Shown here: positions 14,883 through 30,419 of the stretch, in pieces
How the letters are laid out: every line of letters starts with the position of its first letter
How positions within the stretch are numbered: position 1 is the first letter of the stretch
Translations under genes and position numbers: made by a program
Notes under the pieces: model-generated
What the model saw: only the letters and a program-made list of their open reading frames with translations
What the model was told of the DNA's origin: nothing
Database searches by the model: none
NCBI RefSeq assembly: GCF_900105075.1
Contig: NZ_FNSK01000001.1
Span: 2,555,001-2,619,000 of the forward strand
Source: Rhodobacter sp. 24-YEA-8
GTDB taxonomy: Bacteria; Pseudomonadota; Alphaproteobacteria; Rhodobacterales; Rhodobacteraceae
Reading direction: 5' to 3'
DNA length: 64,000 nucleotides

Positions 14883-16079
14883 TCAGCGCTCTGCCGCTGC
14901 CAGGGCCTCAGCTTTCGGCACAGACAGCCAGACCGCGAGGATAAAGCCCGCCACACCGCCGAGGAGCTTGCCCAGGATCAGCGGCGCAATCAGCGTCGGC
15001 TGGAAATTCGCGGTGAAGGCAAGGTGATCGCCGAAGGTAAAGGCCGCGCAAACCGCAAAGGCAATCGCCACCACCTTGTCACGCGGACGCATCTTTTCGA
15101 CCAGGCGGAACATGGCAAGGATATTGGCGCAGGCCGCGAGCAGCCCCGCCGCGCCTTCGGGCGCCACGCCGATCTTCGCGCCCAGCACCTCCATCGGTTT
15201 CGCAAGATATTTCGTCAGCAGGTAGACCATCGGGAAAGCGCCCGCGAGCATGATGCCGATATAGCCCGCCACTTCCAGCGCGCGGAACTGGTCCGCCTCA
15301 TCCGCGATGATCGGATCAAAGCCCCAATGGCCAAAGACATTGGTAAAGAACCCGGTGAAATATTCGACGATCGAGGCCACCAGCACCAGCGTGATGCCCG
15401 CATACATAATCTTTCCGAACCACAGGAAGCCGGTGATCATGGCATCCGGCGCGAAACGCAGGCCGAGCGCAATTGCCACGCAGAAGATGATCAGCGGCAG
15501 GAGATTGCGGAATATCTCGCCAAAGCCGAGCGTCAGGGCGAAATTCGCATCAGACGCGGTCGAGACCTCCGGGCGGATATCCAGCCCCGAAAGTGCGATC
15601 ACCGTGCAGGAGATCAGCACCCCGACCGGCACCGAGAGAATGCCGGACATGATGCCCAGCGCCATATATTTATGATCAGCCTTCTTCAGCATGGCGAGGC
15701 CGACCGGGATCGAGAAGATGATCGTCGCGCCCGACATGAAACCGACCACGGTCGCAATCGCCCATGCCTCGCGGGTCTGGGCGATTTTGTCGGCCAGCTG
15801 GTAGCCCCCCATATCGCCCGCAATCACCGTGGTCGCGGCAATCGAGGGGTCAGCACCCACAAGGGCGAAAAGCGGCCCGGCCGCGAATTCGATAAAATGC
15901 GAGAGATAAGGAATCGCGGCCATGATCCCGGCCACAGGAATGAAAATCGGACCGATGGAATGCAGACCCTCGGTGAACTCTTTACCAAGCCCCTTTTCAG
16001 GGTCACGGATCGCGGCAATCGCACCCAGAACGGCGCAAACCATGATCAGCCAGATAATATAGGTTCCAATGGAAGCCAT
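14883..16079 (-). CDS. eutH: Ethanolamine permease EutH
   Basis: 398 residues with about ten hydrophobic segments and the EutH signature region FIPVAGIMAAIPYLSHFIEF near residues 45-64, followed by GPLFALVGADPSIAATTVI. EutH carries ethanolamine across the inner membrane. An AGGAGGG ribosome site is 7 bases before the ATG. No eutBC ammonia-lyase or microcompartment genes are in the window, so this EutH is an orphan and may serve an N-methylated ethanolamine or feed the kinase/oxidoreductase genes upstream. It appears to have its own promoter region, since a terminator-like stem separates it from the preceding gene. Confidence 0.9.
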   Translation of the reverse strand: MASIGTYIIWLIMVCAVLGAIAAIRDPEKGLGKEFTEGLHSIGPIFIPVAGIMAAIPYLSHFIEFAAGPLFALVGADPSIAATTVIAGDMGGYQLADKIAQTREAWAIATVVGFMSGATIIFSIPVGLAMLKKADHKYMALGIMSGILSVPVGVLISCTVIALSGLDIRPEVSTASDANFALTLGFGEIFRNLLPLIIFCVAIALGLRFAPDAMITGFLWFGKIMYAGITLVLVASIVEYFTGFFTNVFGHWGFDPIIADEADQFRALEVAGYIGIMLAGAFPMVYLLTKYLAKPMEVLGAKIGVAPEGAAGLLAACANILAMFRLVEKMRPRDKVVAIAFAVCAAFTFGDHLAFTANFQPTLIAPLILGKLLGGVAGFILAVWLSVPKAEALAAAER

Positions 16080-16114
16080 TGCTGTCCCTCCTGTTGATTA
16101 TTGTTTTCATTGAT

Positions 16115-16142
16115 AAAAGGCCGGGCCATTTCGGGCCCGGCC
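16115..16142 (-). terminator. Rho-independent terminator between the GcvT-type oxidoreductase gene and eutH
   Basis: On the - strand a GGCCGGGCC/GGCCCGGCC stem with a short loop is followed by TTTT. It lies 10 bases past the oxidoreductase stop and 36 bases before the eutH start, so it should end the upstream operon while leaving eutH to its own or read-through transcription. Confidence 0.7.
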
Positions 16143-16151
16143 TGCAGTCAC

Positions 16152-18608
16152 TTATGCTTTCACCCGCAGCGAGCCCGGATCGTAAAGAGGATCGAGATGC
16201 AGTTTCGCGGGCCGGATCTCATTGGCGACGACCAGCTCATAGCGGCCCGATTGCAGGAAAGCGTCGCTGACGCCCGCCTCATTGCGCACATAGCCAAAGC
16301 CGATCGGGCTTTGCAGGCTGTAGCCGTAACCGCCGCTGGTCAGATAGCCGACCGGCTCACCATCCCTGAGGACCGTTTCACGCCCCAGCAGCACCACATC
16401 GGCATCATCGGTGGTGAACCCGGCAAGCCGTTTGGTCAGGGCGGCGCCAGCCGCCGCCTCGCAGGCTTTGCGGCCGATAAAGTCAGTGCCGCGTTTCAGC
16501 TTGACCGCCCAGCCAAGGCCCGCCTCGAACGGGGTGTCATTCGCAGTGATGTCGGATCCCCAGGCGCGGTAACCTTTTTCCAGGCGCAGGCTTTCAATCG
16601 CGCGGTAGCCGGTCGGGCGAATGCCATGCGGCGCCCCCGCCACCATCAGCGCGTCAAACACATCGCCGGTGCCGGAAAGGGGTACATGCAACTCCCATCC
16701 GAGTTCGCCGACATAGGTGACCCGCAGCGCACGGACCTGATGGCCGGCGATCTCCAGCTCGCGAACCGCCCCGAAGGGGAAGGCCTCATTCGAGACATCC
16801 GCCTTTGTGACCGAAGTCAGCACCTCGCGCGCCTTCGGCCCCATCAGGGACAGCGTGCCATAGTCCTCGGTCACGTCGCTGATCGCCACATCGCCCGATG
16901 GCAGATGGTCGGAAATCCAGGCAAGATCATGGGTGCGCGACCCCGTTCCGGTCACGAGATAAAAACGGTCATCGGCCAGCCGCGCAACGGTCAGATCACA
17001 TTCAATGCCGCCGCGCGAATTCAGGATCTGGGTATAGGTCAGGCGGCCCGGCGCCTTCGCGACATGGTTCGCACAGATCAGTTCCAGCGCATCGGCCGCC
17101 CCTGCCCCCGCCACCTCATATTTCGCGAAGGACGACTGGTCGAAAACGCCTACCCCTTCGCGGACGAGCCGGTGTTCCCGGCCCACCGCATCAAACCAGT
17201 TCTGGCGGCCCATCGAATAGATATCGCGCGGCTCTTCGCCCGGGCCGGCAAACCAGTTTGGCCGTTCCCATCCAAGTTTCGATCCGAACACCGCGCCATG
17301 GTCTTTCAGCCGCGTATAAAGCGGCGAGGTGATGCGCGGGCGCCCGCTTTCATATTCCTCATGCGGGAAGCCGATGGTGTAATGCTTGCCGTAAGCCTCA
17401 AGCGTGCGTTCCTCGACCCAGACGCGGTCACGATGCAGCCCCGAAAAGCGGCGGATATCAACCGACCAGAGATCCAGCGGCGCCTCGCCCCGCATGACCC
17501 ATTCCGCCAGCGCCCAGCCCGCGCCGCCGCCCGAGGCGATGCCAAAGGCGTTGAACCCGGCGCCCACGAACATATTTGCGCATTCCGGCGCGAGGCCGAG
17601 GATGAAATTCCCGTCCGGTGTGAAACTCTCCGGCCCGTTGATCATCTGCTTGAGGCCGGTTTCCGCGAGCTTTGGCACCCGGGCGATGGCCTCTTTCATA
17701 TGCTGCTCGAAATGGTCGAAATCATCATCGAACAGCTGGAATTCCCACTGGTCGGGCACATCGCCGCCAGGTAGCCCCGTGCGCCAGCTCTGCGGGTTCG
17801 GCTCATAGCCCCCCATCACGAGGCCACCCACCTCTTCCTTGAAATAGGTGCGCCGGTCGGGGTCGCGCAAAGTCGGCGCATCAGACGCGAGGCCCTCGAT
17901 CTTTTCCGTCACGATATATTGGTGCTTCACCGGTTGCAGCGGCACGTTCACACCCGCTTTCGCCCCCACCTGCCGCGCCCATTGCCCGCCGCAATTCACC
18001 ACCTTCTCGCAGGCAATCACGCCCTGATCGGTCTCGACCGCTGTGATACGGTTCCCATCCATCTGAAACCCGGTGACGCGCACGTTCTCCACCAGCTTCG
18101 CACCGTGCATCCGCGCGCCTTTGGCCAGCGACTGCGTGATATCCGATGGGCTCGCCTGCCCGTCCGTCGGCAACCAGGAGGCGCCGACCAGATCCGAGAC
18201 ATCCATCAGCGGCCACATGCGTTTGACCTCTTCGGGCGAGACAAGATGCATCTCCATTCCGAAGCTTCTCGCGGTGGTCGCCAGGCGGCGATATTCGGTC
18301 CAGCGGTCCTGGTTGGTCGCCAGCCGCAGACAGCCGGTCATCTTCCAGCCGGTCTCAAGCCCGGTCTCGGCGGCGAGATTTTTGTACAGGTCAACCGAGT
18401 ATTTCAGAACCTTGGTGATCGAGGCCGAAGATCGCAACTGCCCCACCAGCCCCGCCGCATGCCAGGTCGACCCCGATGTGATCTTGCCCTGTTCCAGCAG
18501 GATCACATCCGCCTTGTGATCGCGCGCCAGGTGATAGGCGGTCGAGCAGCCGATAATTCCGCCCCCGATCACCACGATCTGGGCATGTGCGGGCAGGGTC
18601 TGCGACAT
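16152..18608 (-). CDS. FAD-dependent oxidoreductase with GcvT domain (dimethylglycine/sarcosine dehydrogenase-like)
   Basis: 818 residues. An N-terminal FAD-binding DAO domain (VVIGGGIIGCSTAYHLA at residues 12-28, GSTWHAAGLVGQLR for flavin attachment) is followed at about 430-810 by the GcvT tetrahydrofolate-binding domain (GYRAIESLRLEKGYRAWGSD). Enzymes of this build oxidise N-methyl groups of dimethylglycine, sarcosine or related amines and hand the one-carbon unit to folate in the cytoplasm. The start overlaps the preceding kinase-like gene as TGATG, so both are co-translated. A divergent DeoR-type operator stands upstream of the pair. Confidence 0.9.
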   Translation of the reverse strand: MSQTLPAHAQIVVIGGGIIGCSTAYHLARDHKADVILLEQGKITSGSTWHAAGLVGQLRSSASITKVLKYSVDLYKNLAAETGLETGWKMTGCLRLATNQDRWTEYRRLATTARSFGMEMHLVSPEEVKRMWPLMDVSDLVGASWLPTDGQASPSDITQSLAKGARMHGAKLVENVRVTGFQMDGNRITAVETDQGVIACEKVVNCGGQWARQVGAKAGVNVPLQPVKHQYIVTEKIEGLASDAPTLRDPDRRTYFKEEVGGLVMGGYEPNPQSWRTGLPGGDVPDQWEFQLFDDDFDHFEQHMKEAIARVPKLAETGLKQMINGPESFTPDGNFILGLAPECANMFVGAGFNAFGIASGGGAGWALAEWVMRGEAPLDLWSVDIRRFSGLHRDRVWVEERTLEAYGKHYTIGFPHEEYESGRPRITSPLYTRLKDHGAVFGSKLGWERPNWFAGPGEEPRDIYSMGRQNWFDAVGREHRLVREGVGVFDQSSFAKYEVAGAGAADALELICANHVAKAPGRLTYTQILNSRGGIECDLTVARLADDRFYLVTGTGSRTHDLAWISDHLPSGDVAISDVTEDYGTLSLMGPKAREVLTSVTKADVSNEAFPFGAVRELEIAGHQVRALRVTYVGELGWELHVPLSGTGDVFDALMVAGAPHGIRPTGYRAIESLRLEKGYRAWGSDITANDTPFEAGLGWAVKLKRGTDFIGRKACEAAAGAALTKRLAGFTTDDADVVLLGRETVLRDGEPVGYLTSGGYGYSLQSPIGFGYVRNEAGVSDAFLQSGRYELVVANEIRPAKLHLDPLYDPGSLRVKA

Positions 18609-19516
18609 CAGGTTTTCTTTCCGTAAACTGAGCGGTAATGGTCGAGCGCGATCTCAAACCGCGCGAGGTTTTCTTCGGTATAAGCCGGGTAATCGGTGCC
18701 GGGCGCGTTCAGATACAGCTCGGACGCCATGCTCCACATCGCCTCACGCAAAAGGCTGGCGCATTGCATCGCGGCCATAGCGCGCAGCAACTCGCGCGAC
18801 GGCGTCTCGCCGAAATAGGCGCGCAGCAGCGTGTTCGTCTCTGTCGCCGAAAAGCCCGCATTCGACGACACGCCGGCAAGGTCGAACATCGCGGTCGAGA
18901 ACCCGGCATATTCGAAATCAATCAGCCAGAGCCGGTTGCCATCATCGAGGAAATTCGCCGGAAGCAGGTCATTATGGCTGAAAATGATCGGCAGCGGGAT
19001 CTGCGCTTCCTCCAGCTCATCGGCCAAAGCGAGGTAACGCGGCAGATCGGCCAGTTTGCGACTGCCGCCCGTCCGCAAGGTACGGGCATAATCGCGGATC
19101 ACATGGAAGGGCCAGAAGATGAATCCCGGCCCTGAGACATGGCGCCCCATCTCACGATGGAAATCGCGGATCAGCCGCGCCACGCCGTCGATATTGCCGC
19201 GCACGTCACCCGCGTTGAACGTATGCGCGCTCAGGTGGCGGCTGACCATGACCCCCGGCCCGGCGAATTCTACCGCCGGAGCGAAACCGGCGGCTTCGGC
19301 GGCGCGGGCGGTCATGATCTCGCGCTCGCGGATCACGTGGTGGAACGGATAATCCTTGCCAAAGCGCACCACATGGCCGCCCTGCGCATCGCGCACCAGC
19401 CAGCTTTCATTGCTGATGCCGCCCAGAAGCGGCGCGATGCTGATTTCCCCCTGCCAGAGCGGCAGCGCTCCGATGATCGCCGCCTTCTCTGGCGGAACTC
19501 TTGTCTCTCCGGTCAT
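18608..19516 (-). CDS. Choline/ethanolamine kinase-like phosphotransferase
   Basis: 302 residues of the APH/choline-kinase fold. The catalytic loop reads FSHNDLLPANFL and the metal-binding segment LWLIDFEYAG, both as in LicA/choline kinases. The ATG at 19516 has an AGGGGGG ribosome site; the longer frame to 19585 would run into the operator. The neighbourhood (EutH downstream, demethylating oxidoreductase overlapping) points to an amino-alcohol as substrate, most simply ethanolamine, an N-methylated form, or choline. The true substrate remains untested. Confidence 0.85.
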   Translation of the reverse strand: MTGETRVPPEKAAIIGALPLWQGEISIAPLLGGISNESWLVRDAQGGHVVRFGKDYPFHHVIREREIMTARAAEAAGFAPAVEFAGPGVMVSRHLSAHTFNAGDVRGNIDGVARLIRDFHREMGRHVSGPGFIFWPFHVIRDYARTLRTGGSRKLADLPRYLALADELEEAQIPLPIIFSHNDLLPANFLDDGNRLWLIDFEYAGFSTAMFDLAGVSSNAGFSATETNTLLRAYFGETPSRELLRAMAAMQCASLLREAMWSMASELYLNAPGTDYPAYTEENLARFEIALDHYRSVYGKKT

Positions 19517-19593
19517 ATGCCCCCCTGCAGTCTGTCGCCGCATCTTGGTGTAAGACTGGCGGTGGCTTCGGGATTGCGTCAACAAAAATGTGG

Positions 19594-19638
19594 ATTTATG
19601 ACCGACTATGGCCGATATCTGTGGAAACGGTCATAAAT
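19594..19638. promoter_or_regulatory. 45-bp DeoR-type operator between divergent genes
   Basis: Perfect 11-base arms ATTTATGACCG (19594-19604) and CGGTCATAAAT (19628-19638) are 23 bases apart. A further ACGGTCA copy occurs at 19658-19664, just before the DeoR ribosome site. The arrangement lies between the kinase-like gene and the DeoR gene and would let one repressor control both. Confidence 0.75.
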
Positions 19639-19680
19639 TCGCGCGCCAGATGCGCAAACGGTCACGAGGTCAGGGCTTTC

Positions 19681-20442
19681 ATGGATCACTCTCCGCGTCA
19701 CGGCCAGATCCTCGCGATGCTGTCGGACCAGGGAACGGTTGGAATCAACGAACTTGCAGCGCGGCTGCGTGTCTCGGCCGAGACCATTCGTCGCGACGTG
19801 AAGAGCCTGGCCGCGCAGGGCGAAATCGTGCGGATGCATGGGATGGTCGGGCTGGCCTCGACGCTGCGCGAGGCCCCCTTCGAGCGCCGGATGCGCGAAA
19901 ACCGCGCGGCGAAAGACATCATCGTGCGCCGTGCCGCCGCCACGATCCGCGACGGGGATTCGGTGATGCTTGATACCGGCACGACGACGAGCCTGCTGGC
20001 ACGCGCGCTTTTGCAGCATCATCAGCTGGTGGTGGTGACGAATTCTTCAGACATTGCCCGCACACTGGCCACGGTGAATGGCAACCAGGTCTATATGGCG
20101 GGCGGCAGGCTGCGGAGCGACAGTGGTGCGTCCTTCGGGGTCTCGGCGATAGATTTTGTCAGCCGGTTCAGCGTTGATCATGCGGTGATTTCGGCCGGGG
20201 CGATGGATGCCCTGACCGGGGTGATGGATTACGATCTGGAGGAGGCGGAATTCGCCCTCGCCATGCTGCGCTGCGGCCGCAGACGGGTGGTGGTGACGGA
20301 TGCGACGAAATTCGGAGTGCAGGGCCTGGTCCAGGTCTGCGGCTTTGACGCGATTGACGAGGTGATCTGCGACCTGCCACCGCCCCCGGACCTCGAGGCC
20401 GCGCTGCAGGCCGAAGGCGTGCTGATCCGCGCCAGCGACTGA
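19681..20442 (+). CDS. DeoR-family transcriptional repressor
   Basis: 253 residues: N-terminal DeoR helix-turn-helix (VGINELAARLRVSAETIRRD, about residues 20-39) and a C-terminal DeoR sensor domain with the phospho-ligand loop LDTGTTTSLLARAL. Members usually sense a phosphorylated intermediate; a kinase encoded divergently could produce that signal. The start at 19681 was chosen because the HTH begins about 20 residues later as in the family and a GAGGTCAGG site precedes it; longer frames cross the operator. Confidence 0.9.
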   Translation: MDHSPRHGQILAMLSDQGTVGINELAARLRVSAETIRRDVKSLAAQGEIVRMHGMVGLASTLREAPFERRMRENRAAKDIIVRRAAATIRDGDSVMLDTGTTTSLLARALLQHHQLVVVTNSSDIARTLATVNGNQVYMAGGRLRSDSGASFGVSAIDFVSRFSVDHAVISAGAMDALTGVMDYDLEEAEFALAMLRCGRRRVVVTDATKFGVQGLVQVCGFDAIDEVICDLPPPPDLEAALQAEGVLIRASD

Positions 20443-20457
20443 ACCGGCGCAGCACCC

Positions 20458-21645
20458 TCAGTCTCCCAGGAACTCGCGCCAGCGCCGGATCAGGTAATTA
20501 TGTTCAGGCATGATGGTCGACCAGACGGCGATACGGGCAACACGGCCCTGATAGCTGCCGCCTTCACGCCGCTCGCCGCGCCGGACCACGATCTGCCCGT
20601 CACTGCCCGCGAGATCTTCGCAGGCAGGCTCGCCTGCATACCAGAAGGCCCATTCGGCCGGCGTCAGCGTGTCGCGCAGCGGCTGGACCACCGACATGTA
20701 ATAGCCCTGCCGCGCCATGATCGCCCCGGGAACACCGTCGAGCCACCAGTTCAGCCATGCATATGCCATGTCGAGCCGTTCGCCCGACAGCGCCGCCGAA
20801 AGGCAAAGTCCGGAATGCCAGCCGCGATAGCCCTCGACCGGCGCCGCATAATGCAGATCGCGCCCCATGGCCCGCATCGCGTAATAGGCCGGCGACCACA
20901 AAGCCGAAATCACCGGCCCGCCACCACTGCCCTGAGGCGTCATCAGCCGCACCGCATCATCGGATGTCGCCCAGAAGCGCGTAAAATGTCCCGACCGGCG
21001 CAGGGGCATTAGCACAGCGAAAAGAGCGTCGATCTCTTCGATGGTCAGATCGCCCGGATCGGCAATGTCGACCAGCCCCGCCGCCCGCGCAGCCAGCGCA
21101 AGTTCTACCACACTTGCGGCCGGATCGGCGGCGAGGGCTGCGCGCCCATGCCAGCGCCCATCGAGAAGCCAGGCCCAGCTTTCCGGTTCTCCCGCGTGGC
21201 GAAGCGCCGGCATTTCCGGTGTCCAGACAAAGCTGTCGACGTTGTAAGTTGTTGGCAACATGGATATTTGCGGCGCAGCTCCCGGCTGCGGCGTCGCGGC
21301 AAGGCTGCGATCAGATTGCGCATAAAGAAGGCTTCCGGGCCAAGTCCCGGGTTGGCGCCCATCGGCGCCGGGGCGCGTTCCTGCAATGGTCACCTCATCC
21401 CACCGCGCGAGCCGCGTCGTGTCGATCGGGCGGATCGAAGCCGCCGTCCATAAAAGATCCAGCGAATGGAACCACTGGTCATAAACATCGAAGCTTTCGG
21501 GCGCCATCACGCCGCGGCGCTGACAATCGAGCCCGTCCAGCACCTCGAACTGAATGCCGAACGGCAAATCTGCCGCCGCCCGCGCGCACAGTTCAGGCGT
21601 CAGGGTAGCAGGTGTTCCGATCACGCGCAGCACGGTGTCCGTCAT
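20458..21645 (-). CDS. Solute-binding-protein paralogue without a signal peptide
   Basis: 395 residues related along their length to the exported binding protein at 22959: for example EGYRGWHSGLCL versus EGYRGWGLGMGL, YLNWYLSG matched by WLNWWLDG, and IARQGYYSSV matched by MARQGYYMSV. Yet the N-terminus (MTDTVLRVIGTPATL) starts straight into the first strand, with no Sec, Tat or lipoprotein signal. It begins inside the GntR stop codon (ATGA), so it is made together with that regulator. A cytoplasmic, ligand-binding sensor or co-regulator is a reasonable inference; an alternative is a pseudo-paralogue that lost its export signal. Its convergent neighbour, the DeoR gene, ends 15 bases away. Confidence 0.8.
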   Translation of the reverse strand: MTDTVLRVIGTPATLTPELCARAAADLPFGIQFEVLDGLDCQRRGVMAPESFDVYDQWFHSLDLLWTAASIRPIDTTRLARWDEVTIAGTRPGADGRQPGTWPGSLLYAQSDRSLAATPQPGAAPQISMLPTTYNVDSFVWTPEMPALRHAGEPESWAWLLDGRWHGRAALAADPAASVVELALAARAAGLVDIADPGDLTIEEIDALFAVLMPLRRSGHFTRFWATSDDAVRLMTPQGSGGGPVISALWSPAYYAMRAMGRDLHYAAPVEGYRGWHSGLCLSAALSGERLDMAYAWLNWWLDGVPGAIMARQGYYMSVVQPLRDTLTPAEWAFWYAGEPACEDLAGSDGQIVVRRGERREGGSYQGRVARIAVWSTIMPEHNYLIRRWREFLGD

Positions 21646-22691
21646 ATTCCCCCCTGATGTGCCGGAATCAGCCAGGCCACCCGGCGCGGCGGCGGCAGGA
21701 GCGACAGCACGCGGAGCCGCGCAAGGGTAAGCCGCCCGATCCGCAACAAATGGCTGCGCATCAGGACCTGCGCCGCCTCGGCTTCGTCCCGGCCCAGATG
21801 ATGCAGGATCCGCGCGTAATCAAGCAATGCGGCCAGGTCATCGGTCAGCGGGAAGTGGTGACGGAAAAGATGCGGCACCACCAGCGAGATCTGATTGCGT
21901 CGGATCGAGGCCAGCAGTCGCGAATTCCGCAGCCCGGCAAACATCTCCTGAAACATCGCCTGGTCGATCTGATCCAGCGCCTGGGGGTCCACCTGCGGGA
22001 AGACGCGGATCAGTGCCGCGACCTGCGTCTCGAGCCCCGCGAGCCAGGCCCGGTCAAGGCCCGGCAACACCTGGACCAGCGCCGCCGGCTCCATCAGCGC
22101 CCGCATTTCCAACGTTTCGCGCAGGTCGCGCGCGGTCATCTGGCCGACGATCCAATGCGACTTGCTGTCCTTGTCGACCAGGCGCCGGTCCATCAGCCGC
22201 CAGAGCACCTCGCGCGCGACGGTCCGGCTGACATTGAAATGGTCGCCAAGCGCCGCCTCCTGAATACGCCAGGAGCCGAAAGGCATGGCGGCGGTGATTT
22301 CCTCGCGCACCTCGTCGAAAATCCGCTCCCAGGAAGGCGAGCGGTCGATTTCCTCCGGCTCGCCGGTGAGAATCTGGTGGAGCTGGCGCAGCGGCAGCTG
22401 CACCGGCTCCGCCTGGCCAACCTTAAACCCCTGACCGCCGGCCTCAAAGATCAGCCCGGCCTCGGCCAGGAGCGCCAGCGCACGGCGCACCGGAGCCCGG
22501 CTGACCCCGAGCTGCCCGGCAACTGGCGCTTCTTTCAGCACCGTCCCGGGCGGCAGCTCGCCGCTGCTGATTTTGCGGAACAGAAGGTCGCGAATCGAGA
22601 CATAGAGAAAGGCCGGACGTGACCCCGCCGCCGCCATCGACATCGCCGGGCGGTCGATCAGCTGGGCAGATTCGGTGATGTTCTGGCTCAT
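21642..22691 (-). CDS. GntR/FadR-type regulator with two winged-helix domains
   Basis: About 349 residues. A first GntR winged helix (residues about 25-90, GVSRAPVRRALALLAEAGLI) is followed by a second (residues about 120-185, FNVSRTVAREVLWRLMDRRL), then an FCD-like helical ligand domain with TLEMRALMEPAAL. The usual family has one DNA-binding domain. ATG 22691 was taken; ATG 22712 adds seven residues and is possible, while the frame further up to 22841 lacks a ribosome site and crosses the promoter region. Divergent from the ABC operon starting at 22959, it should control that operon. Confidence 0.85.
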   Translation of the reverse strand: MSQNITESAQLIDRPAMSMAAAGSRPAFLYVSIRDLLFRKISSGELPPGTVLKEAPVAGQLGVSRAPVRRALALLAEAGLIFEAGGQGFKVGQAEPVQLPLRQLHQILTGEPEEIDRSPSWERIFDEVREEITAAMPFGSWRIQEAALGDHFNVSRTVAREVLWRLMDRRLVDKDSKSHWIVGQMTARDLRETLEMRALMEPAALVQVLPGLDRAWLAGLETQVAALIRVFPQVDPQALDQIDQAMFQEMFAGLRNSRLLASIRRNQISLVVPHLFRHHFPLTDDLAALLDYARILHHLGRDEAEAAQVLMRSHLLRIGRLTLARLRVLSLLPPPRRVAWLIPAHQGGI

Positions 22692-22712
22692 CCGTCCGAT
22701 CTTTCTGTCCAT

Positions 22713-22958
22713 CGCATACAAAGGCCGCACATATCCCGACAAACACTGGGAAACCTGCCCGAAAAACCGGCAGTTCGGGCGCCTGACCGGAAGTATGCGG
22801 CCACGCCTAACATCTTTCCAGATAAAAATTGTGCATTGCATCCTAAGAACACTTTGCTAGCGTACTTGTCAGAGTGATATCCGCTCCGGATAGTTCGCAT
22901 CAGCGCCTGACCGGTCAGAAGACCCGGCAGGCCACCTCCAGCAACAGGGAGAATGACC
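22713..22958. promoter_or_regulatory. Divergent promoter region of the GntR pair and the ABC operon
   Basis: About 250 bases. Toward the ABC operon TTGCAT (22836-22841) and TAGCGT (22858-22863), 16 bases apart, form a possible sigma-70-type promoter. A small hyphenated palindrome TGCATTGCA (22832-22840) overlaps it and may be an operator. A GGGAG ribosome site at 22947-22951 serves the binding-protein gene. Promoter placement is tentative. Confidence 0.35.
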
Positions 22959-24248
22959 ATGACGACCAGCAAGAAACCGGGCCTCAGCCGCCGGGGCTTT
23001 ATGAAAGCCTCAGCCGCCGGAGCCGGCGCGGCAGTAGGTTCGGGGATTCTCGGCGCGCCGATGATCTGGGCCCAGACAATCAAAGACATCACGCTCAACC
23101 AGGTGGGCCCCTCTTATTCGGTGATCGCCGATATCTGCGAAAAGGCCTCGGCCGATCTCGGGTTCAAAATCGTGCCGCAAACCGCTGACAGCACCTCACT
23201 GATGGCCAAGGTGGTGAACCAACCCGAGACCATCGACATTGCCGATCTGGAATTCTGGGCGATGCAGAAGGTCTGGCGCTCGGGCCAGCTGCAGCCGGTC
23301 GAAGTGGCGAAGATCGCGAAATGGGGCGACATCACGCCGGTGATGAAGGACGGCAAGAATTTCGACGGATCCGCCCAGTCGATGCAGGGCACCACGCCGG
23401 TCAAGGTGATGTATACCGGCGGCCCGGGCGACACCGCCTTTTCTGCCAGCCCGACCGAGTTCGCCACCACGATGCCGACCATCTTCAATGCCGACACGGT
23501 CGGCATCCGGCCAGACCTGATCGGGCGCCCGGTGGAAAGCTGGGGCGAGCTGTTCAACCCGGAATTCAAGGGCAAGACCGCGCTGGTGAACATCCCGCAG
23601 ATCGGCATCATGGACGCCGCCATGGCGATGGAGGCTCTGGGCGAGCTGACCTATGGCGACAAGGGCAACATGACGAAGGAAGAGATCGACACCACGATCA
23701 ACCGCCTGATCGAGCTGAAGAAAGCCGGTCAGTTCCGGGCCTTCTGGTCGACCTTTGACGAATCCGTCAACCTGATGGCGGGTGGCGAGGTGGTGATCCA
23801 GTCGATGTGGTCGCCCGCCGTGACGGCGGTGAAATCGCGCGGCACTGCCTGCGTCTATCAGGGGCTGAAAGAGGGCTATCGCGGCTGGGGCCTCGGCATG
23901 GGGCTGATGAACCACCTCGAAGGCATCAAACTTGAAGCCGCCTATGAATATCTGAACTGGTATCTCTCGGGCTGGCAGGGCGCGTTCATCGCGCGGCAGG
24001 GCTATTATTCCTCGGTGCCGACCACGGCAAAGGAACAGCTGACCGAGAATGAATGGGGCTATTGGTATGAAGGCCAGGCCGCGAAAGAGGACATCCTCGA
24101 TCCTTACGGCGCGGTGATGGACAAGGCGGGCGCTGTGCGTGATGGCGGCTCGTTCGAGGCCCGCATGGGCAATGTCGCCTGCTGGAACACTGTGATGGAT
24201 GAAGAGCGCTACATGGTGCAGCGCTGGAACGAATTCGTCTCGGCCTGA
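22959..24248 (+). CDS. ABC transporter solute-binding protein (PotD-like), Tat signal
   Basis: 429 residues. The N-terminus has a twin-arginine export signal (LSRRGFMKASAAGAGAAVG) with likely cleavage after IWAQ, followed by a type II periplasmic binding fold of the polyamine/opine group. Two ATG codons are close, 22953 and 22959; the second is 7 bases from the GGGAG site and was preferred. It begins an operon with two permeases and an ATPase. The ligand is not evident; the downstream hydrolase suggests an imide, ureide or amide rather than a polyamine. A stem-loop right after the gene should raise its expression relative to the permeases. Confidence 0.9.
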   Translation: MTTSKKPGLSRRGFMKASAAGAGAAVGSGILGAPMIWAQTIKDITLNQVGPSYSVIADICEKASADLGFKIVPQTADSTSLMAKVVNQPETIDIADLEFWAMQKVWRSGQLQPVEVAKIAKWGDITPVMKDGKNFDGSAQSMQGTTPVKVMYTGGPGDTAFSASPTEFATTMPTIFNADTVGIRPDLIGRPVESWGELFNPEFKGKTALVNIPQIGIMDAAMAMEALGELTYGDKGNMTKEEIDTTINRLIELKKAGQFRAFWSTFDESVNLMAGGEVVIQSMWSPAVTAVKSRGTACVYQGLKEGYRGWGLGMGLMNHLEGIKLEAAYEYLNWYLSGWQGAFIARQGYYSSVPTTAKEQLTENEWGYWYEGQAAKEDILDPYGAVMDKAGAVRDGGSFEARMGNVACWNTVMDEERYMVQRWNEFVSA

Positions 24249-24256
24249 TCCAATTT

Positions 24257-24279
24257 CCGGCGGGGTCGCGCCCCGCCGG
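24257..24279 (+). terminator. Stem-loop between binding-protein and permease genes
   Basis: Perfect arms CCGGCGGGG and CCCCGCCGG around 5 bases, without a T-run, in the 51-base gap. Such intercistronic stems after binding-protein genes stabilise the upstream message or partly stop transcription, giving excess binding protein over membrane subunits. Confidence 0.6.
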
Positions 24280-24299
24280 CACTCTCACGAGGTTAATCA

Positions 24300-25172
24300 A
24301 TGTCGCGTTCTTCCGGGCGGTCTTCGCCGCTGACGCCCTATCTCCAGGTCGCGCCGCTGGCGCTGATCATGCTGGCGATGGTGGGCATTCCGCTGATCAC
24401 CGTGTTGCTTTTAAGCTTCTGGCAAACCGATGGCATCACGATCTACCCGGAATTCACCTGGGACAACTACGCGCAGGTGCTGACCTCGCCGGTCACGCTG
24501 ACACTGTTTCTGAACACGCTGAAATACGCCGCGCTGACCCTGATCGCGACCATGCTGATCGGCTTCACCTGTTCGTATTTTCTGGTGTTCCATGTGCGGA
24601 ACCTGAAATGGCAGATCGGGCTGTTTTTGCTCTGCACCATTCCGTTCTGGACATCGAACGTCATCCGCATGGTGTCCTGGATCCCGTTTCTGGGCCGCGA
24701 GGGCGTCTTCAACCAGGCGCTGATATCAGCCGGGGTGATCGATCAACCGCTTGATATCCTGCTTTATTCCGACTTCGCGGTGGTCCTGACCTATATCCAT
24801 CTCTTCACCCTTTTCATGATCGTGCCGATCTTCAACTCGATGGCCAAGATCAACCCGAACCTGATCGAAGCCGCCCGCGATGCCGGCGCCTCGGGCTGGC
24901 AGATCCTCTGGACGGTGATCGTGCCGCTGTCTCGCACCGGGATCGCACTTGGCTCGATCTTTGTCGTCACGCTGGTGATGGGCGATTTCTTCGTCGTCCG
25001 TGTCATGAGCGGCGGGCAAAGCGCATCGGTCGTCTCGGCGATGAAGAACCAGATCGACCAGTTGTTCTACCCGGAAGCTGCCGCGATGGCGGTTCTGCTG
25101 ATCGTGGTCGTGTTGCTGATGGTCTCGGCGATCCTGAGGATCGTCGATATCCGCTCTGAACTGGCGAAGTGA
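24300..25172 (+). CDS. ABC transporter permease (PotB-like)
   Basis: 290 residues with six predicted membrane helices, the first near residues 17-40. The cytoplasmic EAA loop (IEAARDAGASGWQILWTVIV) that docks on the ATPase is near residue 190. It forms the translocation channel with the next permease. An acgaggttaatca stretch gives a GAGG ribosome site at good distance. Confidence 0.92.
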   Translation: MSRSSGRSSPLTPYLQVAPLALIMLAMVGIPLITVLLLSFWQTDGITIYPEFTWDNYAQVLTSPVTLTLFLNTLKYAALTLIATMLIGFTCSYFLVFHVRNLKWQIGLFLLCTIPFWTSNVIRMVSWIPFLGREGVFNQALISAGVIDQPLDILLYSDFAVVLTYIHLFTLFMIVPIFNSMAKINPNLIEAARDAGASGWQILWTVIVPLSRTGIALGSIFVVTLVMGDFFVVRVMSGGQSASVVSAMKNQIDQLFYPEAAAMAVLLIVVVLLMVSAILRIVDIRSELAK

Positions 25173-25179
25173 GGGTGTA

Positions 25180-26007
25180 ATGTCACAGGCAACCCAAAAA
25201 CGCGGGCTCGGATTTTACCTGCTGGCGGCGTTTTTCGCGCTTTTCGTAATCTTTCTTTACGGCCCGATGCTGGTGATCTTCATCCTCAGCTTCCAAGGGC
25301 CAACGGGCGGGCTGACCTTCCCGTTGCGCGGCGTCTCGACCCATTGGTTCAACGACCTCTGGACCTCAACGCGCTATGGCGATCTTGGCGGCGCCTTCCG
25401 GCGGTCGATGGTTCTGGGCGCGATGTCTCTGGCCATTACCGCAATCGTCTGCCTTTTCGCCGGGCTCGCCTTTCGCAAGCGCTTCATCGGTGCAGGGCCG
25501 CTGTTTTACCTGGCGATCACCAGCCTCGTGGTGCCGGGGATCCTGCTCGGCCTCGGGATTTCGCAACTGTTCCAGCTGCTTGGCTTTAGGTTGAACTGGT
25601 GGCTTTCGGGCCTAGGCGCGCATCTGAGCTGGACGCTGCCTTTTGGCCTTTTGATCATGTTCGCGGTTCTGAACCGGTTTGACGGCTCCTGGGAAGAGGC
25701 CGCCCGCGATGCCGGCGCTACCCCCTGGCAGACGCTGCGCTATGTGACCGTGCCGATCCTGTTCCCCGGTCTGATCGCCGTGGCACTGTTCGGCTTTACC
25801 CTGTCTTACGATGAAATGCCGCGCTCACTGTTGACGGTAGGCGGCAGGAATACCCTGCCCATCGAGATCTCAAATATGACGACGAATGTGACCACACCCG
25901 CGCTTTACGCGATCGGCACCGTGACTTCGGTGCTCAGCTTCGCCGTCATCGCACTGGCCTTCGCCGGCATCGCCCTAATCCAGAAACGCCGTGCCCGCGC
26001 GAAGTGA
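25180..26007 (+). CDS. ABC transporter permease (PotC-like)
   Basis: 275 residues and six predicted membrane helices; the EAA loop reads WEEAARDAGATPWQTLRYV around residue 170-190. Starts 7 bases after the previous stop, so the two channel subunits are co-translated. PotC-type partner of the upstream permease. Confidence 0.92.
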   Translation: MSQATQKRGLGFYLLAAFFALFVIFLYGPMLVIFILSFQGPTGGLTFPLRGVSTHWFNDLWTSTRYGDLGGAFRRSMVLGAMSLAITAIVCLFAGLAFRKRFIGAGPLFYLAITSLVVPGILLGLGISQLFQLLGFRLNWWLSGLGAHLSWTLPFGLLIMFAVLNRFDGSWEEAARDAGATPWQTLRYVTVPILFPGLIAVALFGFTLSYDEMPRSLLTVGGRNTLPIEISNMTTNVTTPALYAIGTVTSVLSFAVIALAFAGIALIQKRRARAK

Positions 26008-26018
26008 GGAAACTGACT

Positions 26019-27134
26019 ATGTCTGATGTAAGCCGTATTGATATCAAGGGCGTAACCAAGCTTTACGGGTCGGTGAAGGCGGTCAACAACGTCGATCTGG
26101 TGATCGAGGGCGGGTCTTACTGCTGCATGATCGGCCCCTCTGGCTGTGGCAAGACCACACTTTTGCGGATGATTGCCGGGCACGAGACCCCCTCCTCCGG
26201 CAATATTTCTATCGGCGGGCAGGACGTCACCCATGCGAAAACCGGCAGCCGCGGCACGGCGCTGATGTTCCAGAATTACGCCCTCTTCCCGCATCTTTCG
26301 CTGACCGACAACGTCGCCTTCTCGCTGCGCGTGAAAGGCGAGGCAACCGAAGCCCGTCGCCTCAAGGCGCGTGAGATGCTGGACCGCGTACAACTGGGCC
26401 ACCTCGCGGACCGCCTGCCCTCGGAACTGTCTGGCGGACAGCAACAGCGGGTGGCACTGGCGCGCGCCCTGATCACCAATCCAAAGGTCCTCCTGCTGGA
26501 TGAGCCGCTGTCTGCACTTGACGAATTCCTGCGCCTGCGGATGCGGGTTGAACTGAAGCGCCTGCAAAACGAGCTTGGGATCACCTTCATCCATGTCACC
26601 CATACCCAGCCAGAAGCCATCGCGCTGGCCGATCAGGTCGTCGTCATGGATCACGGGCTGATCGAACAGGCCGCCTCACCGCGCGACATCTATAACCGCC
26701 CGCACAGCCCCTATGTGGCCCGGTTTATGGGCGGCCAGAATGTGCTGGCAGGCAAGGTCGAAAGCACCTCAGGCGATTCGGCAAGCGTCATCACCGCGGA
26801 TGGGCACCGCTATGACCTGCCCTCCGCGCCCGGAGTGACCCCGGGCGCAGAAATTCGTTTCTCAGTCCGCCGCGACCGTATTCACCTCTCGCCCGATACC
26901 CCCGCAAGAAACGGGCTTACCGGCAAGGTCATCAACACCGAATACCAGGGCACTTTCGTCAAAGTCGCCCTCGATACGGGATCGCGCGAAGAATTCATCA
27001 TCTACCTGCCCGATGAAGCCTGGTTCGCACGGCCCATCACGGTCGGCGAGACCATCCATGCCAGTTGGGAGCCCACCGCAAGCCACCATCTGAAAGGCAC
27101 GAACAATTCCGCCGGAGCGCCTCTGGAAGACTGA
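26019..27134 (+). CDS. ABC transporter ATP-binding protein (PotA-like)
   Basis: 371 residues. Walker A is GPSGCGKTT (39-47), the signature LSGGQQQRVALARAL, Walker B LLLDEPLSALDE and the switch His in VTHTQPEA. A C-terminal TOBE domain follows (about 280-355), as in PotA/FbpC/MalK-type importers. ATG 26019 has a GAGGA site 8 bases away; a GTG at 26004 in the same frame is less likely. It powers the importer formed with the three preceding genes. Confidence 0.93.
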   Translation: MSDVSRIDIKGVTKLYGSVKAVNNVDLVIEGGSYCCMIGPSGCGKTTLLRMIAGHETPSSGNISIGGQDVTHAKTGSRGTALMFQNYALFPHLSLTDNVAFSLRVKGEATEARRLKAREMLDRVQLGHLADRLPSELSGGQQQRVALARALITNPKVLLLDEPLSALDEFLRLRMRVELKRLQNELGITFIHVTHTQPEAIALADQVVVMDHGLIEQAASPRDIYNRPHSPYVARFMGGQNVLAGKVESTSGDSASVITADGHRYDLPSAPGVTPGAEIRFSVRRDRIHLSPDTPARNGLTGKVINTEYQGTFVKVALDTGSREEFIIYLPDEAWFARPITVGETIHASWEPTASHHLKGTNNSAGAPLED

Positions 27135-27160
27135 GGCAAATCCGTTAACAGGAGGATAAC

Positions 27161-28063
27161 ATGGCCAAGAAAATCTACTGCGCCTTCGGCACCGATATTG
27201 ATTCGGTCGCTGGCTGGATCGGGTCTTATGGCGGCGGCGACAGCCCGTCAGATATCCAGCGCGGCATCTTCGCGACAGAGGTCGGCATCCCCCGGCTGCT
27301 GCGTCTGTTCAAAAAATACGATCTCCAGACCAGTTTTTTTATCCCCGGCCACTCGCTGGAAACCTTTCCGAAAGAAATGCGGATGATCGTGGATGCAGGC
27401 CATGAGGTCGGCGCCCATGGCTACCTGCATGAAAACCCGATCGCGATGACGCCACAACAGGAGGAGGATGTTCTCGTCAAATCCATCGAACTGATCGACA
27501 AGCTGACAGGCCGCCCGCCGCGCGGCTATGTGGCGCCCTGGTGGGAAATGTCGAACTCAACGGCAGCTTTGTTGCAGAAATACAATTTCAGCTATGATCA
27601 CAGCCAGGGCTATCGGGATTTTCAGCCCTTCTATGCGCGTGTCGGCGATGAATGGAATGTCATCGATTATACGAAACAGGCCAAAGACTGGATGCATCCG
27701 CTGAAACACGGGCGCGAGATCGATCTCGTCGATATCGCAGCCAACTGGTATGTCGACGATCTTCCGCCGATGATGTTCATGAAGAAGTCGCCCAACAGCC
27801 ACGGCTTCGTCAATCCGCGCGATATCGAAGAGCTGTGGCGCGACCAGTTCGACTGGGTCTACCGCGAAATGGATTATGCGGTCTTTGCCTTCACCATCCA
27901 CCCGGATGTGGCCGGGCGCCCGCAGGTTCTGCTGATGCTGGAACGGCTTATCGAATACATTAATGGCCATGATGGCGTCGAATGGGCGACGTTTGAACAG
28001 ATCACCGATGACTTCCGCAAACGCTATCCGTTTGAAAGCGGTAAGCGGCCAGAGGTGATCTGA
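27161..28063 (+). CDS. NodB-fold hydrolase, imidase/allantoinase-like ('polysaccharide deacetylase' family)
   Basis: 300 residues, no signal peptide, so cytoplasmic and unlikely to act on a polymer. NodB motifs: [11 protein letters not shown] with the metal/catalytic Asp pair near residue 10-12, GAHGYLHE supplying two metal His, RGYVAPWWE and [12 protein letters not shown]. The sequence resembles from memory the cyclic-imide hydrolase and PuuE allantoinase branch rather than peptidoglycan or chitin deacetylases. It follows the ATPase by 26 bases behind an AGGAGG site. I infer that it hydrolyses the compound imported by the upstream transporter; the substrate is not established. Confidence 0.8.
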
Positions 28064-28075
28064 AACGGGGGCGAT

Positions 28076-28369
28076 ATGTGTTCCGCCTGTGGGTTTCCAA
28101 GCCGGCCCGGGCATTGGACTGATGCCGGGGGCTCTACCCCCGGCGACAGGTTGCGACTGCGCTTCATCCGGGTGGCCGCGATCAACCGGCTGCTCGCGCC
28201 CTGGGGGTTAAAGGCCTATGATGACGGTGTGACGCCCGGGTTGCAGCTCTTTGCACCCGGTGGCGCAAGGGAACTTGTGGCCGATCTCGACAACCTCTGG
28301 GCGGTGGCTTCCCGCATGGCCGGATCACCGGTAGACCCGCTTTCGCTGACCGTGCTCAACAATGACTGA
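28076..28369 (+). CDS. Small protein with N-terminal CxxC motif, unknown function
   Basis: 97 residues, starting MCSACGFPSRPGHW and ending in a basic then acidic helical part. The CxxC at residues 2-5 could bind zinc or iron; only these two Cys are near each other. I do not recognise a family. The gene begins 12 bases after the hydrolase stop and overlaps the next start by 8 bases, so it belongs to the operon and is likely a conserved companion of the hydrolase or of the metal chaperone that follows. Confidence 0.6.
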   Translation: MCSACGFPSRPGHWTDAGGSTPGDRLRLRFIRVAAINRLLAPWGLKAYDDGVTPGLQLFAPGGARELVADLDNLWAVASRMAGSPVDPLSLTVLNND

Positions 28370-29366
28370 GGCTTCCATCCAGGGGCAGAACGCCAAAGGC
28401 GATGGCCTTTTGCCACTGACCATCCTTGGCGGTTTTCTCGGGGCCGGGAAAAGCAGCTGGCTGCGCCATCAGCTGCATCAGGGATTGCTCCGCGATCAGC
28501 ATATTATCGTCAACGAGGCTGCGGGAACGCCGGTAGACAATCTGCTCCTGGGCAAGGCTACGCGACTTACGGTCCTCGCCGGGGGCTGCGCCTGTTGCGA
28601 AGGCCTGACGACACTGATTGCGACGCTGCGCGACATCTGCGATCAGGCCAGCGGTCAGGACGCAGGAAAAACGACCGGCATCCTGCTCGAGACCAGTGGC
28701 CTCGCCGATCCGGGCGTCATCGCGAGTGCCATTGCCGCAGACCCCATCCTCGCCCGCCGGCTCCGGCTGTCAGAAATAATCGTGCTCGCCGATGCGCAGC
28801 ACGGGACTTCGCAGCTTATGGAAGAGCCGCTGGCGCGTGCCCAGGCTGAGACAGCCGACCGCATTATAATGACCAAAACCGCATCGGCCCCGCCGGATCA
28901 GACCGCCCGCCTGCTGGCGACGCTGCGACTGCTGAACCCCGGTGCCCGGATCGAAGCTGCAGAGCTCGGGATCCCCCGTGATCTGCCCGAGCCGGGTCAG
29001 CCCTATGCGCTGCCAGCCGCCAGGGCTGACACACCGGACGCACCGATCCGGCCTTTCCGGCTGACGATCGGAGGAGCCTCGCGCGATGATGATGTCCTCG
29101 GCTGGGTGGCGCTTTCGACCTGGCTTTCCGCGCTCCTCTTCGCGCGGGGCAAAGATGTCATCCGCGTCAAGGGTGTGGTGCGGACGCCGGCGGGGCGGCT
29201 CCTGCTGCAATCCGTGCGCCATGTGATGCAGCCGCCCGAGATCCTGCCAGAGATCATGCCCGAGACCTTCGCCGGGCCGCAGCCCGAGGAAGGTGTCATC
29301 GTGCTGATAGGGCGCAATTTTGATGCCGGTCTTATCGCGCAGTCATGGGCCCGCTTTGGCGGCTGA
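28362..29366 (+). CDS. COG0523 (CobW/UreG-type) GTPase, putative metal chaperone
   Basis: 334 residues. Walker A GFLGAGKSS is at about 24-32, and the family metal-binding motif CACC (Cys76, Cys78, Cys79) follows in LAGGCACCEGL. A CobW C-terminal domain is present but short. These GTPases place zinc, nickel, cobalt or iron into client enzymes. Being last in the operon with a metal-dependent NodB hydrolase, that hydrolase is the natural client (inference). Its last 24 bases overlap the 3' end of the convergent gene on the opposite strand. Confidence 0.88.
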   Translation: MTEASIQGQNAKGDGLLPLTILGGFLGAGKSSWLRHQLHQGLLRDQHIIVNEAAGTPVDNLLLGKATRLTVLAGGCACCEGLTTLIATLRDICDQASGQDAGKTTGILLETSGLADPGVIASAIAADPILARRLRLSEIIVLADAQHGTSQLMEEPLARAQAETADRIIMTKTASAPPDQTARLLATLRLLNPGARIEAAELGIPRDLPEPGQPYALPAARADTPDAPIRPFRLTIGGASRDDDVLGWVALSTWLSALLFARGKDVIRVKGVVRTPAGRLLLQSVRHVMQPPEILPEIMPETFAGPQPEEGVIVLIGRNFDAGLIAQSWARFGG

Positions 29367-30419
29367 CCCGCCGGCTTTTTCCAGGGCGCGTTTCGCTTTC
29401 AGCTGACCGGATTCGAACAGCGCGACCAGCACGAGGCCCAGAACCAGCGGCAACATCAGATAGAAAAGCCGGAACACCAACAGCGCCGCCAGCACCGTCT
29501 CGGGTGGAAATTCCGGCAGGCCGGTGATCACCGCCAGCTCGAACACCCCGATCCCACCTGGCGCATGCGACAGCAGCGCCAGTGAGAAGCCGACCACGAA
29601 CACCCCCATGACCACCATATATCCAGGGTTATTCGCCTCAGGCAGCGCGAAATAGAGGATGCCGGCGGCAAAAAGCAGCTCCACCGGTGCAATCGTCACC
29701 TGCTTCAGCGCGATGGAAAACCGCGGGTAAGAAATGCGGAAATTACGGATCTTCAGATCCGGCAGACCAAGCGCCGAAGAGGCCAGATAGGCCACCACAA
29801 TTGCCAGCGTAACCAGCGCCGCCCATTGCACCACATGCGGCGAGATATGGGTGGATACGCGCTCGCCCAGACCCGGCGTCAGGAGAAAGGCAAAACCCAG
29901 AACGATCATCACGGCAAGGCTGAAGGTCAGCGAGCAGAAAGTGACCAGCACCCCTACTTCGGGCCCCGAAAGCCCCCTGGTCGTATAGGCGCGGTAGCGG
30001 ATCACGGCGCCGGAAAAGGCAGAGGCACCAATGGTATGGGCAAGCGAATAGGTGGTCAGGGCACAGCCGACAACAAAGGGAAAGCTCACCTTTTTGCGCA
30101 GATGCTGCAGCGCGATCACGTCATAAAAGGCAAGATTGATATAGCAGGCGAGCGTGCAGAGCACGATCAGCAGCCAGTGCCAGGAATTGATTGCCCCGAA
30201 GCCGGCCCAGAGCGCCTCCCAGGACATATCTTTCAGCTCATGCGTCAGAAACCAGAAGGAAATCCCGATTGCCAACAGGCCGATCACCGGCCAGATGAAT
30301 TTCTTCCACTTCGCGCCGCCTGACGTCGTACCTGCCACGTGCCATTGTCCTGTTGTTTTTGGCCCCGCCGGCAACAAAATAATCCCCGGCAAGTTGCCAC
30401 TATTGGAACCGCATTCCAT
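29343..30419 (-). CDS. UPF0104-family membrane protein (YbhN/MprF transmembrane-region type)
   Basis: About 358 residues from the outermost start, with around eight membrane helices. Motifs such as TIGASAFSGAVIRYRAYTTRG and SHAPGGIGVFELAVI are typical of the lysylphosphatidylglycerol-synthase transmembrane family, which includes lipid flippases. No synthase domain is attached, so lysyl-lipid synthesis is not implied. The first ~35 residues are poorly hydrophobic and the start may be internal. Convergent with the GTPase gene, with a 24-base overlap. Confidence 0.82.
   Translation of the reverse strand: MECGSNSGNLPGIILLPAGPKTTGQWHVAGTTSGGAKWKKFIWPVIGLLAIGISFWFLTHELKDMSWEALWAGFGAINSWHWLLIVLCTLACYINLAFYDVIALQHLRKKVSFPFVVGCALTTYSLAHTIGASAFSGAVIRYRAYTTRGLSGPEVGVLVTFCSLTFSLAVMIVLGFAFLLTPGLGERVSTHISPHVVQWAALVTLAIVVAYLASSALGLPDLKIRNFRISYPRFSIALKQVTIAPVELLFAAGILYFALPEANNPGYMVVMGVFVVGFSLALLSHAPGGIGVFELAVITGLPEFPPETVLAALLVFRLFYLMLPLVLGLVLVALFESGQLKAKRALEKAGGSAAKAGP

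Follow-up and report, generated by a model that had tools for sequence, protein, structure and literature searches.

A conserved unit of an imidase-type NodB-fold hydrolase, a small CxxC protein and a COG0523 GTPase in an importer operon of Rhodobacter sp. 24-YEA-8

Gene content of the locus

The subject of this analysis is an operon of Rhodobacter sp. 24-YEA-8 (host genome of 5.01 Mb in 7 contigs) that encodes an ATP-binding cassette (ABC) importer, a NodB-fold hydrolase, a 97-residue protein that we call S97, and a GTPase of the COG0523 (G3E) group. It lies in a stretch of 64,000 nucleotides (contig NZ_FNSK01000001.1, positions 2,555,001 to 2,619,000), here called the window, and all coordinates below are positions in it. 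As read from the window, seven open reading frames (ORFs), all on the + strand and with short gaps or overlaps between them, make up the operon. The first-pass annotation had described this row of importer, hydrolase, 97-residue protein and GTPase, and we recovered all ORFs in the claimed order, with family scans in agreement. The start at 22959 given there is the second of two in-frame ATG codons of the solute-binding protein gene, and the first one sets the start at 22953. The genes are:

22953..24248, + strand: Tat-exported PotD/YdcS-like solute-binding protein (SBP_bac_8 domain and twin-arginine (TAT) signal)
24300..25172, + strand: ABC permease, PotB-like (BPD_transp_1, from family scans)
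25180..26007, + strand: ABC permease, PotC-like (matches PotC-type models)
26004 (GTG) or 26019 (ATG)..27134, + strand: ABC ATPase with TOBE domain, PotA/PhnT2-like (ABC_tran and TOBE_2)
27161..28063, + strand: NodB-fold hydrolase of the HP0310/cyclic-imidase type, core gene 1 (Polysacc_deac_1; homology to 3qbu)
28076..28369, + strand: S97, 97-residue protein with invariant N-terminal CxxC, core gene 2 (homologue searches and alignments)
28362..29366, + strand: COG0523 (G3E) GTPase, core gene 3 (cobW and CobW_C; GxxGxGKS and GCxCC)

The second permease falls narrowly under the Pfam cut-off (24.9 vs 26.4), and PotC-type models match it. An AGGAGG sequence precedes the start codon of the hydrolase gene, and the genes of S97 and the GTPase overlap by 8 bases.

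Distribution of the three-gene unit

The conserved unit at this locus consists of the hydrolase, S97 and the GTPase (hereafter the triad), and the importer is an exchangeable part. When the best 80 of 126 S97 relatives in one-per-species genomes were taken as anchors, the order hydrolase, S97, GTPase was found on one strand at all 80 loci. As this search starts from S97, a second survey was anchored on the hydrolase (E 1e-60 or better, with the host's own genome included in the genome counts), which was present in 21 of 385 genomes of the class, 14 of 248 of the family and 10 of 398 of the phylum. At the 44 places outside the host itself (22 of 23 class places, 13 of 13 family genomes and 9 of 9 phylum genomes), S97 lay beside the hydrolase or within about 4 kb in every case, and the GTPase in 42. 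The class place outside the 44, G289:C159, has by its coordinates an S97 match beside a hydrolase fragment; the family genome G406, with the hydrolase in two frames, was counted once; and five loci are common to both surveys. S97 and the hydrolase also occur together at the level of genomes: the S97 profile matched 23 of the 385 class genomes, which are all 21 with the hydrolase and two without a close imidase (Fisher p 1e-32, with the 385 genomes treated as independent). In one of these two, a divergent NodB hydrolase adjoins S97 and the GTPase, and in the other, an amidase lies near S97 and the GTPase on a 10.5-kb contig that gave no hydrolase match.

Among 135 loci, which include places fetched twice, 127 passed an adjacency script. 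Two failures (L063, L066) are artefacts of the distance rule caused by overlapping stop-to-stop frames; at L125, L127 and L128, S97 and the GTPase lie about 3–4 kb away, and L104, L131 and L132 have another orientation. The linkage was found in alpha-, beta- and gammaproteobacteria and in one actinomycete, and five of ten plasmid regions that were hand-picked for diversity among 100 to 162 records hold all three genes (Rubrobacter, of the Actinomycetota, Pantoea, Paracoccus, Rhizobium and Paraburkholderia). A pairing of hydrolase and GTPase genes by mere chance, the outcome that the first-pass annotation had named as fatal to its proposal, is excluded for the groups surveyed. As a separate observation on plasmids, imidase homologues (E 1e-40) are carried by 100 plasmid records, 26 of them predicted to be conjugative, and haloarchaeal plasmids hold more distant homologues.

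The three proteins of the unit

The best solved relative of the hydrolase is Helicobacter pylori HP0310 (PDB 3qbu/4ly4; 484.8 bits over residues 1–291), and because the alignment is gapless, the residue numbers of the two proteins coincide. According to its structure paper (this and the other papers are cited for the accessible parts of their text), HP0310 is a homotetramer without a signal peptide, binds its metal through D14, H86 and H90 with D12 and H247 near a water, and has a pocket blocked by Y23, W127, W196 and L201 and no polysaccharide groove (PMC3084791). The window hydrolase keeps the metal and catalytic residues D12, D14, H86, H90 and H247 as well as the four pocket residues, and at any of these nine positions 122 or all 123 of the triad hydrolases (117 distinct) agree with it. 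No signal peptide is seen on direct reading of the translation, for which no predictor was used. Its sequence thus places the hydrolase among the NodB-fold proteins of the HP0310 type, the cytoplasmic "cyclic imidase" branch with a small pocket, and it probably opens small nitrogen rings. In fungal nicotinate breakdown, the relative HxnM has been assigned the step that opens the ring of 3-hydroxypiperidine-2,6-dione, and it has been linked to both HpPgdA and the cyclic imide hydrolase of Pseudomonas putida YZ-26 (PMC9304392). The HP0310 structure paper places this protein nearest to the PuuE allantoinase and reports it as inactive on N-acetylglucosamine (GlcNAc), chitotriose, acetyl-polyamines, acetyl-dipeptides and allantoin; the compounds listed in its accessible text include no cyclic imide (PMC3084791). 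The earlier description of the hydrolase as cytoplasmic and imidase-like is supported by the missing signal peptide and by HP0310 as nearest relative. The cut-off of the allantoinase model TIGR03212 was not reached (81.3 bits vs 424.6), and identity with PuuE was rejected. Peptidoglycan or chitin deacetylase identity was rejected as well, as the best such NCBIfam model, TIGR03006, gave 58.4 vs 276.2 bits and an export signal is lacking.

These scores bear on the view that follows the annotation, in which the hydrolase deacetylates polysaccharides or peptidoglycan and the operon serves cell-wall or sugar recycling. HP0310 has indeed been reported to deacetylate peptidoglycan extracts (PMC3084791) and to act on acetylated xylan and chitin (PMC3688963). 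However, the window hydrolase has no signal peptide and scores far under the cut-offs of deacetylase models, the 3qbu pocket is blocked and grooveless and the protein showed no GlcNAc or chitotriose activity (PMC3084791), and the neighbours in relatives are amidase, hydantoinase, asparaginase and racemase genes. We therefore regard a deacetylase function as very improbable.

S97 of the window has no family match in Pfam or NCBIfam, and a scan of 76 members against families gave scattered weak matches only. A search with the single sequence found 113 homologues and a broad profile (A3) 1162, with the nearest relatives among named genomes in Paracoccus and Pseudogemmobacter. All 135 extracted S97 frames (117 distinct) begin with (M/V)CxxC, and M1, C2, C5, W14, G63, W75, D87 and P88 are invariant in the alignment of 76 rows; H13 is kept in at least 90% of these rows, and the broader profile also recovers copies in which it is replaced. 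AlphaFold models of two distant members concur in one long helix, three strands and a further helix, with the cysteine pair in a low-confidence N-terminal tail, and a comparison with PDB structures, in which the frataxin/CyaY fold was considered, gave no convincing fold match. S97 is likely a client-specific adaptor, given its invariant CxxC tail and its presence beside the hydrolase even at loci without the GTPase.

Alternatively, S97 could be a small subunit with a regulatory or structural role in the hydrolase (or in the GTPase), with a structural zinc at the CxxC motif and the GTPase as the sole chaperone. Its presence beside the hydrolase at the two loci without a GTPase match (L104, L131) would suit a subunit, as would the ordered body with a disordered cysteine tail in the models. 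Against this, the coupled gene pair is S97 and the GTPase: the two genes overlap in 63% of the cases measured, with a median of −4 bases (110 of the 123 triads, with start codons set by a rough rule), and the pair remains intact at seven loci where the hydrolase lies about 3 kb off (L125, L127, L128, L145, L153, L185 and L186). A subunit role is, in our view, unlikely, and an adaptor that links the GTPase and the hydrolase is the reading that we prefer.

The GTPase matches cobW (96.7 bits) and CobW_C (37.9 bits), has YjiA (1nij) as a structural homologue, and shows GxxGxGKS and GCxCC in its translation. Among the triad GTPases, the Walker A motif is present in 123 of 123 and the CxCC pattern in 119 of 123. 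The cobalamin-related CobW proper was rejected as an identity (TIGR02475, 51.2 vs a cut-off of 332.1 bits). A tree with midpoint rooting was built from 47 triad GTPases and 28 control rows, the latter taken from the genomes of the former or from other sampled ones (three of 31 control loci gave no match). A supported branch (100/99) sets off a clade that holds all 47 triad GTPases and six rows labelled as other. Two of these (L169, L177) are copies of triad GTPases, which leaves four true non-triad members (L168, L175, L176, L178) with no imidase nearby; the gene families near them are CHAD, Fur, a fatty-acid hydroxylase with a dienelactone hydrolase, and TctC. Pairwise distances of the three core proteins correlate at 0.87–0.90 across the 123 triads, unchanged for the 117 distinct ones and with shared descent not controlled for. 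The GTPases of two Psychrobacter loci (L056, L062) group with that of the alphaproteobacterial Sneathiella, which suggests lateral transfer.

A general zinc-economy role of the GTPase, with a linkage that reflects co-regulation or co-transfer instead of service to the hydrolase, would fit with the 2 to 10 PF02492 matches per genome in the 16 genomes searched and with the four members of the triad clade that lie away from any imidase. The linkage nevertheless spans three proteobacterial classes and an actinomycete, and the triad label clusters on the tree with 4 changes, as opposed to 22.9 in shuffles, so that we consider such a role quite improbable and retain a GTPase that serves the hydrolase.

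Genomic context

Companion genes were counted on the strand of the hydrolase in the 80 S97-anchored stretches, with one member per family identified. The counts are 40 for a PRK06102-type amidase, 31 for a short-chain dehydrogenase, 19 for a D-hydantoinase, 11 for a carbon-nitrogen hydrolase, 10 for a flavin reductase of the old yellow enzyme (OYE) type, 8 for an asparaginase and 6 for an Asp/Glu/hydantoin racemase. Eight loci combine amidase, dehydrogenase, OYE-type reductase and imidase, in seven of which the other three lie upstream of the imidase; at L029 the dehydrogenase is found several genes downstream of it. The imide or ureide chemistry proposed in the first-pass annotation gains from the amidase, hydantoinase, asparaginase and racemase neighbours in relatives and loses from their absence in the operon of the window, and as the latter holds no companions, the substrate can be called only a small cyclic imide or ureide. 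In near relatives (e.g., L146), the asparaginase that accompanies the hydrolase suggests, by way of speculation, an amino- or hydroxy-imide, whose half-amide would resemble asparagine.

Larger catabolic groups were seen in addition. At L028, L039, L040, L042, L046, L047, L077 and L150, an importer or a major facilitator superfamily (MFS) transporter, two short-chain dehydrogenases, an amidase or asparaginase, an OYE-type reductase and the imidase stand together, at L150 without S97 and the GTPase. In Rhodococcus, an asparaginase, the imidase, two dehydrogenases and an NADH:flavin reductase occur without the helpers. The groups with importer, dehydrogenases, amidase, OYE-type reductase and imidase may correspond, in bacteria, to the lower part of the hxn route of nicotinate breakdown.

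The importer had been taken as part of one system with the other genes, and this view had to be given up: importer types vary, and a same-strand importer trio was found in at least 49 of the 80 S97-anchored loci, in stretches that end at 9 kb or at contig ends. An MFS gene lies near the hydrolase in Pantoea and Paraburkholderia, and in the gammaproteobacterium Psychrobacter (L056, L062, L064, L065) the triad is present with no importer match in the stretch. An importer linkage of HP0310-like genes was already published in 2011 (PMC3084791). The window importer shares its subunit families with polyamine importers of the PotABCD/YdcS type but reaches none of the curated cut-offs (PotB 138/348, PotC 105.8/326, PotA 329.4/482, YdcS 28.1/725), so that its ligand is probably not one of theirs.

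Three further features flank the operon:

29356..29374, + strand: terminator-like stem followed by five T (consensus match only)
21642..22841, − strand: GntR/FCD-type regulator, divergent to the operon (family scan; the start may in fact be the ATG at 22694)
20458..21645, − strand: SBP2, a PotD-like protein without a signal peptide, beside the regulator gene (family scan and translation)

As the region holds 10 terminator-like sites where shuffled sequences average 4.8, the stem is weak evidence when taken alone. The GntR/FCD-type gene is, by its position, likely the regulator of the operon, and near relatives hold a homologue at the same place. The SBP2 gene stands beside the GntR regulator gene in the window and in near relatives and directly after the GTPase gene in gammaproteobacterial, betaproteobacterial and rhizobial loci (besides the window: L125, L127, L128, L142, L145, L147 and L153); by eye, none of 22 homologous frames has a visible signal peptide. 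SBP2 could be a ligand sensor or buffer with a binding-protein fold in the cytoplasm. The region 14883–20442 presumably encodes, by labels given by eye, EutH, dimethylglycine-dehydrogenase-like and choline/ethanolamine-kinase-like proteins, and a family scan found a DeoR regulator there as well; it is perhaps an ethanolamine or amine catabolic group. At 45802–49374 (+ strand), a frame of 1190 residues combines, by eye, a zinc-protease-like HExxHxxGxxH motif with long glycine/aspartate-rich RTX-type repeats.

Discussion

From the observed gene order, homology, residue conservation and strong co-occurrence, we infer the substrate class, the metal and an action of S97 and the GTPase on the hydrolase. 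Our interpretation, to which we give a probability of roughly 55%, is a catabolic operon for a cyclic imide (or ureide) that brings its own enzyme-maturation pair, with S97 and the GTPase serving the hydrolase. The polyamine-type ABC importer would take up a small cyclic compound, and the cytoplasmic hydrolase would open the ring to yield a half-amide. If the hydrolase resembles HP0310, it is tetrameric and its mononuclear metal site is buried. Enzymes of the amidase or asparaginase type would finish the half-amide; they stand alongside in many relatives and would be encoded elsewhere in the host genome, if at all. The GTPase would carry or gate the metal, most likely zinc, with iron or cobalt possible, and S97 may act through its N-terminal CxxC tail as a client-specific adaptor or metal relay between the GTPase and the hydrolase. 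Maturation of the hydrolase by S97 and the GTPase is the simplest reading, drawn by analogy with Nha3 and the Fe-type nitrile hydratase.

Several findings weigh against this interpretation. Fifteen of the 80 loci hold none of the seven companion families, and the operon of the window also lacks them. At L104 and L131, second imidase copies (51–53% identical to the query) adjoin an S97 gene in divergent orientation, and the stretch examined gave no GTPase match; in one of these genomes (G196), the other copy has a complete triad (L090) that could supply the GTPase, and in G289 the other hydrolase copy, a fragment at a contig edge, also adjoins S97. In five of the ten plasmid regions, neither S97 nor the GTPase was found within the stretch examined, with hydrolase homologues at 64% (Rhodococcus), 53% (Variovorax), 45% (Halorussus), 36% (Antarctobacter) and 34% (Haladaptatus) identity, so that the helpers are usual and not universal, even for close homologues. 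Finally, one paper reports that HP0310 frees acetate from acetylated xylan, chitin and chitosan and that native and recombinant protein essentially agree (PMC3688963), and the activity of the recombinant protein means that such an enzyme can work without helpers.

Many COG0523 GTPases are uncharacterised and their clients unknown (PMC9164220). The present survey links one of their clades, in the majority of the genomes sampled, to one enzyme family and one small protein that no curated family covers, and the triad makes the client testable together with what may be a new accessory factor. A literature search, with two likely sources outside its reach, found no paper that describes the unit of imidase, S97 and GTPase. 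The triad is real, strongly conserved and apparently under-described, and we read it as a maturation module of a G3E GTPase with a probable new client family.

A wider reading, which we offer tentatively and consider doubtful, joins three proposals: that S97 founds a class of client-specific metallochaperone adaptors, that HP0310–HP0312 of H. pylori are the same triad, and that a bacterial hxn counterpart exists. The initiator methionine of S97 would be removed, and the then N-terminal cysteine and the second cysteine of the CxxC motif would form a flexible metal hook that passes the metal from the COG0523 GTPase to the NodB-fold imidase. The variant with imidase, amidase, short-chain dehydrogenase and OYE-type reductase would be the bacterial match of the lower fungal nicotinate (hxn) pathway, and the H. 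pylori "peptidoglycan deacetylase" would be a matured imidase.

Comparison with known systems

The lower hxn pathway of Aspergillus nidulans uses an imidase, an amidase, an OYE-type reductase and a dehydrogenase (PMC9304392), and families of these kinds stand at eight S97 loci. It differs in being fungal and, in the accessible text, described with no S97 or GTPase, and its companion enzymes are lacking in the operon of the window.

The COG0523 member Nha3 serves one enzyme, the Fe-type nitrile hydratase (PMC2770081; PMC9164220), and as in the triad, a G3E GTPase gene lies beside that of a single client enzyme in a pathway for nitrogen compounds (PMC2770081). The fold of this client differs from that of the NodB hydrolase. 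To our knowledge, nitrile hydratase maturation by Nha3 has no counterpart of S97.

HP0310, also termed HpPgdA, shares with the window hydrolase full-length gapless homology, the metal and catalytic residues and the lack of a signal peptide, whereas the window hydrolase sits in an importer operon with S97 and the GTPase and is known here from its sequence. In H. pylori, the neighbouring genes are annotated as an N-carbamoyl-D-amino-acid amidohydrolase (HP0309), a hypothetical protein (HP0311) and an ATP-binding protein (HP0312) (PMC3866246), the last of which has been named as a COG0523 member (PMC2770081). The HP0309–HP0312 group thus holds a hydrolase homologue and a COG0523 gene as the triad does, with HP0311 compared by annotation alone, and together with the homology of HP0310 this means that the triad may extend to H. 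pylori. The triad also points to possible substrates of a protein family that is listed in public records as "polysaccharide deacetylase", and it raises a question for the much-studied HP0310.

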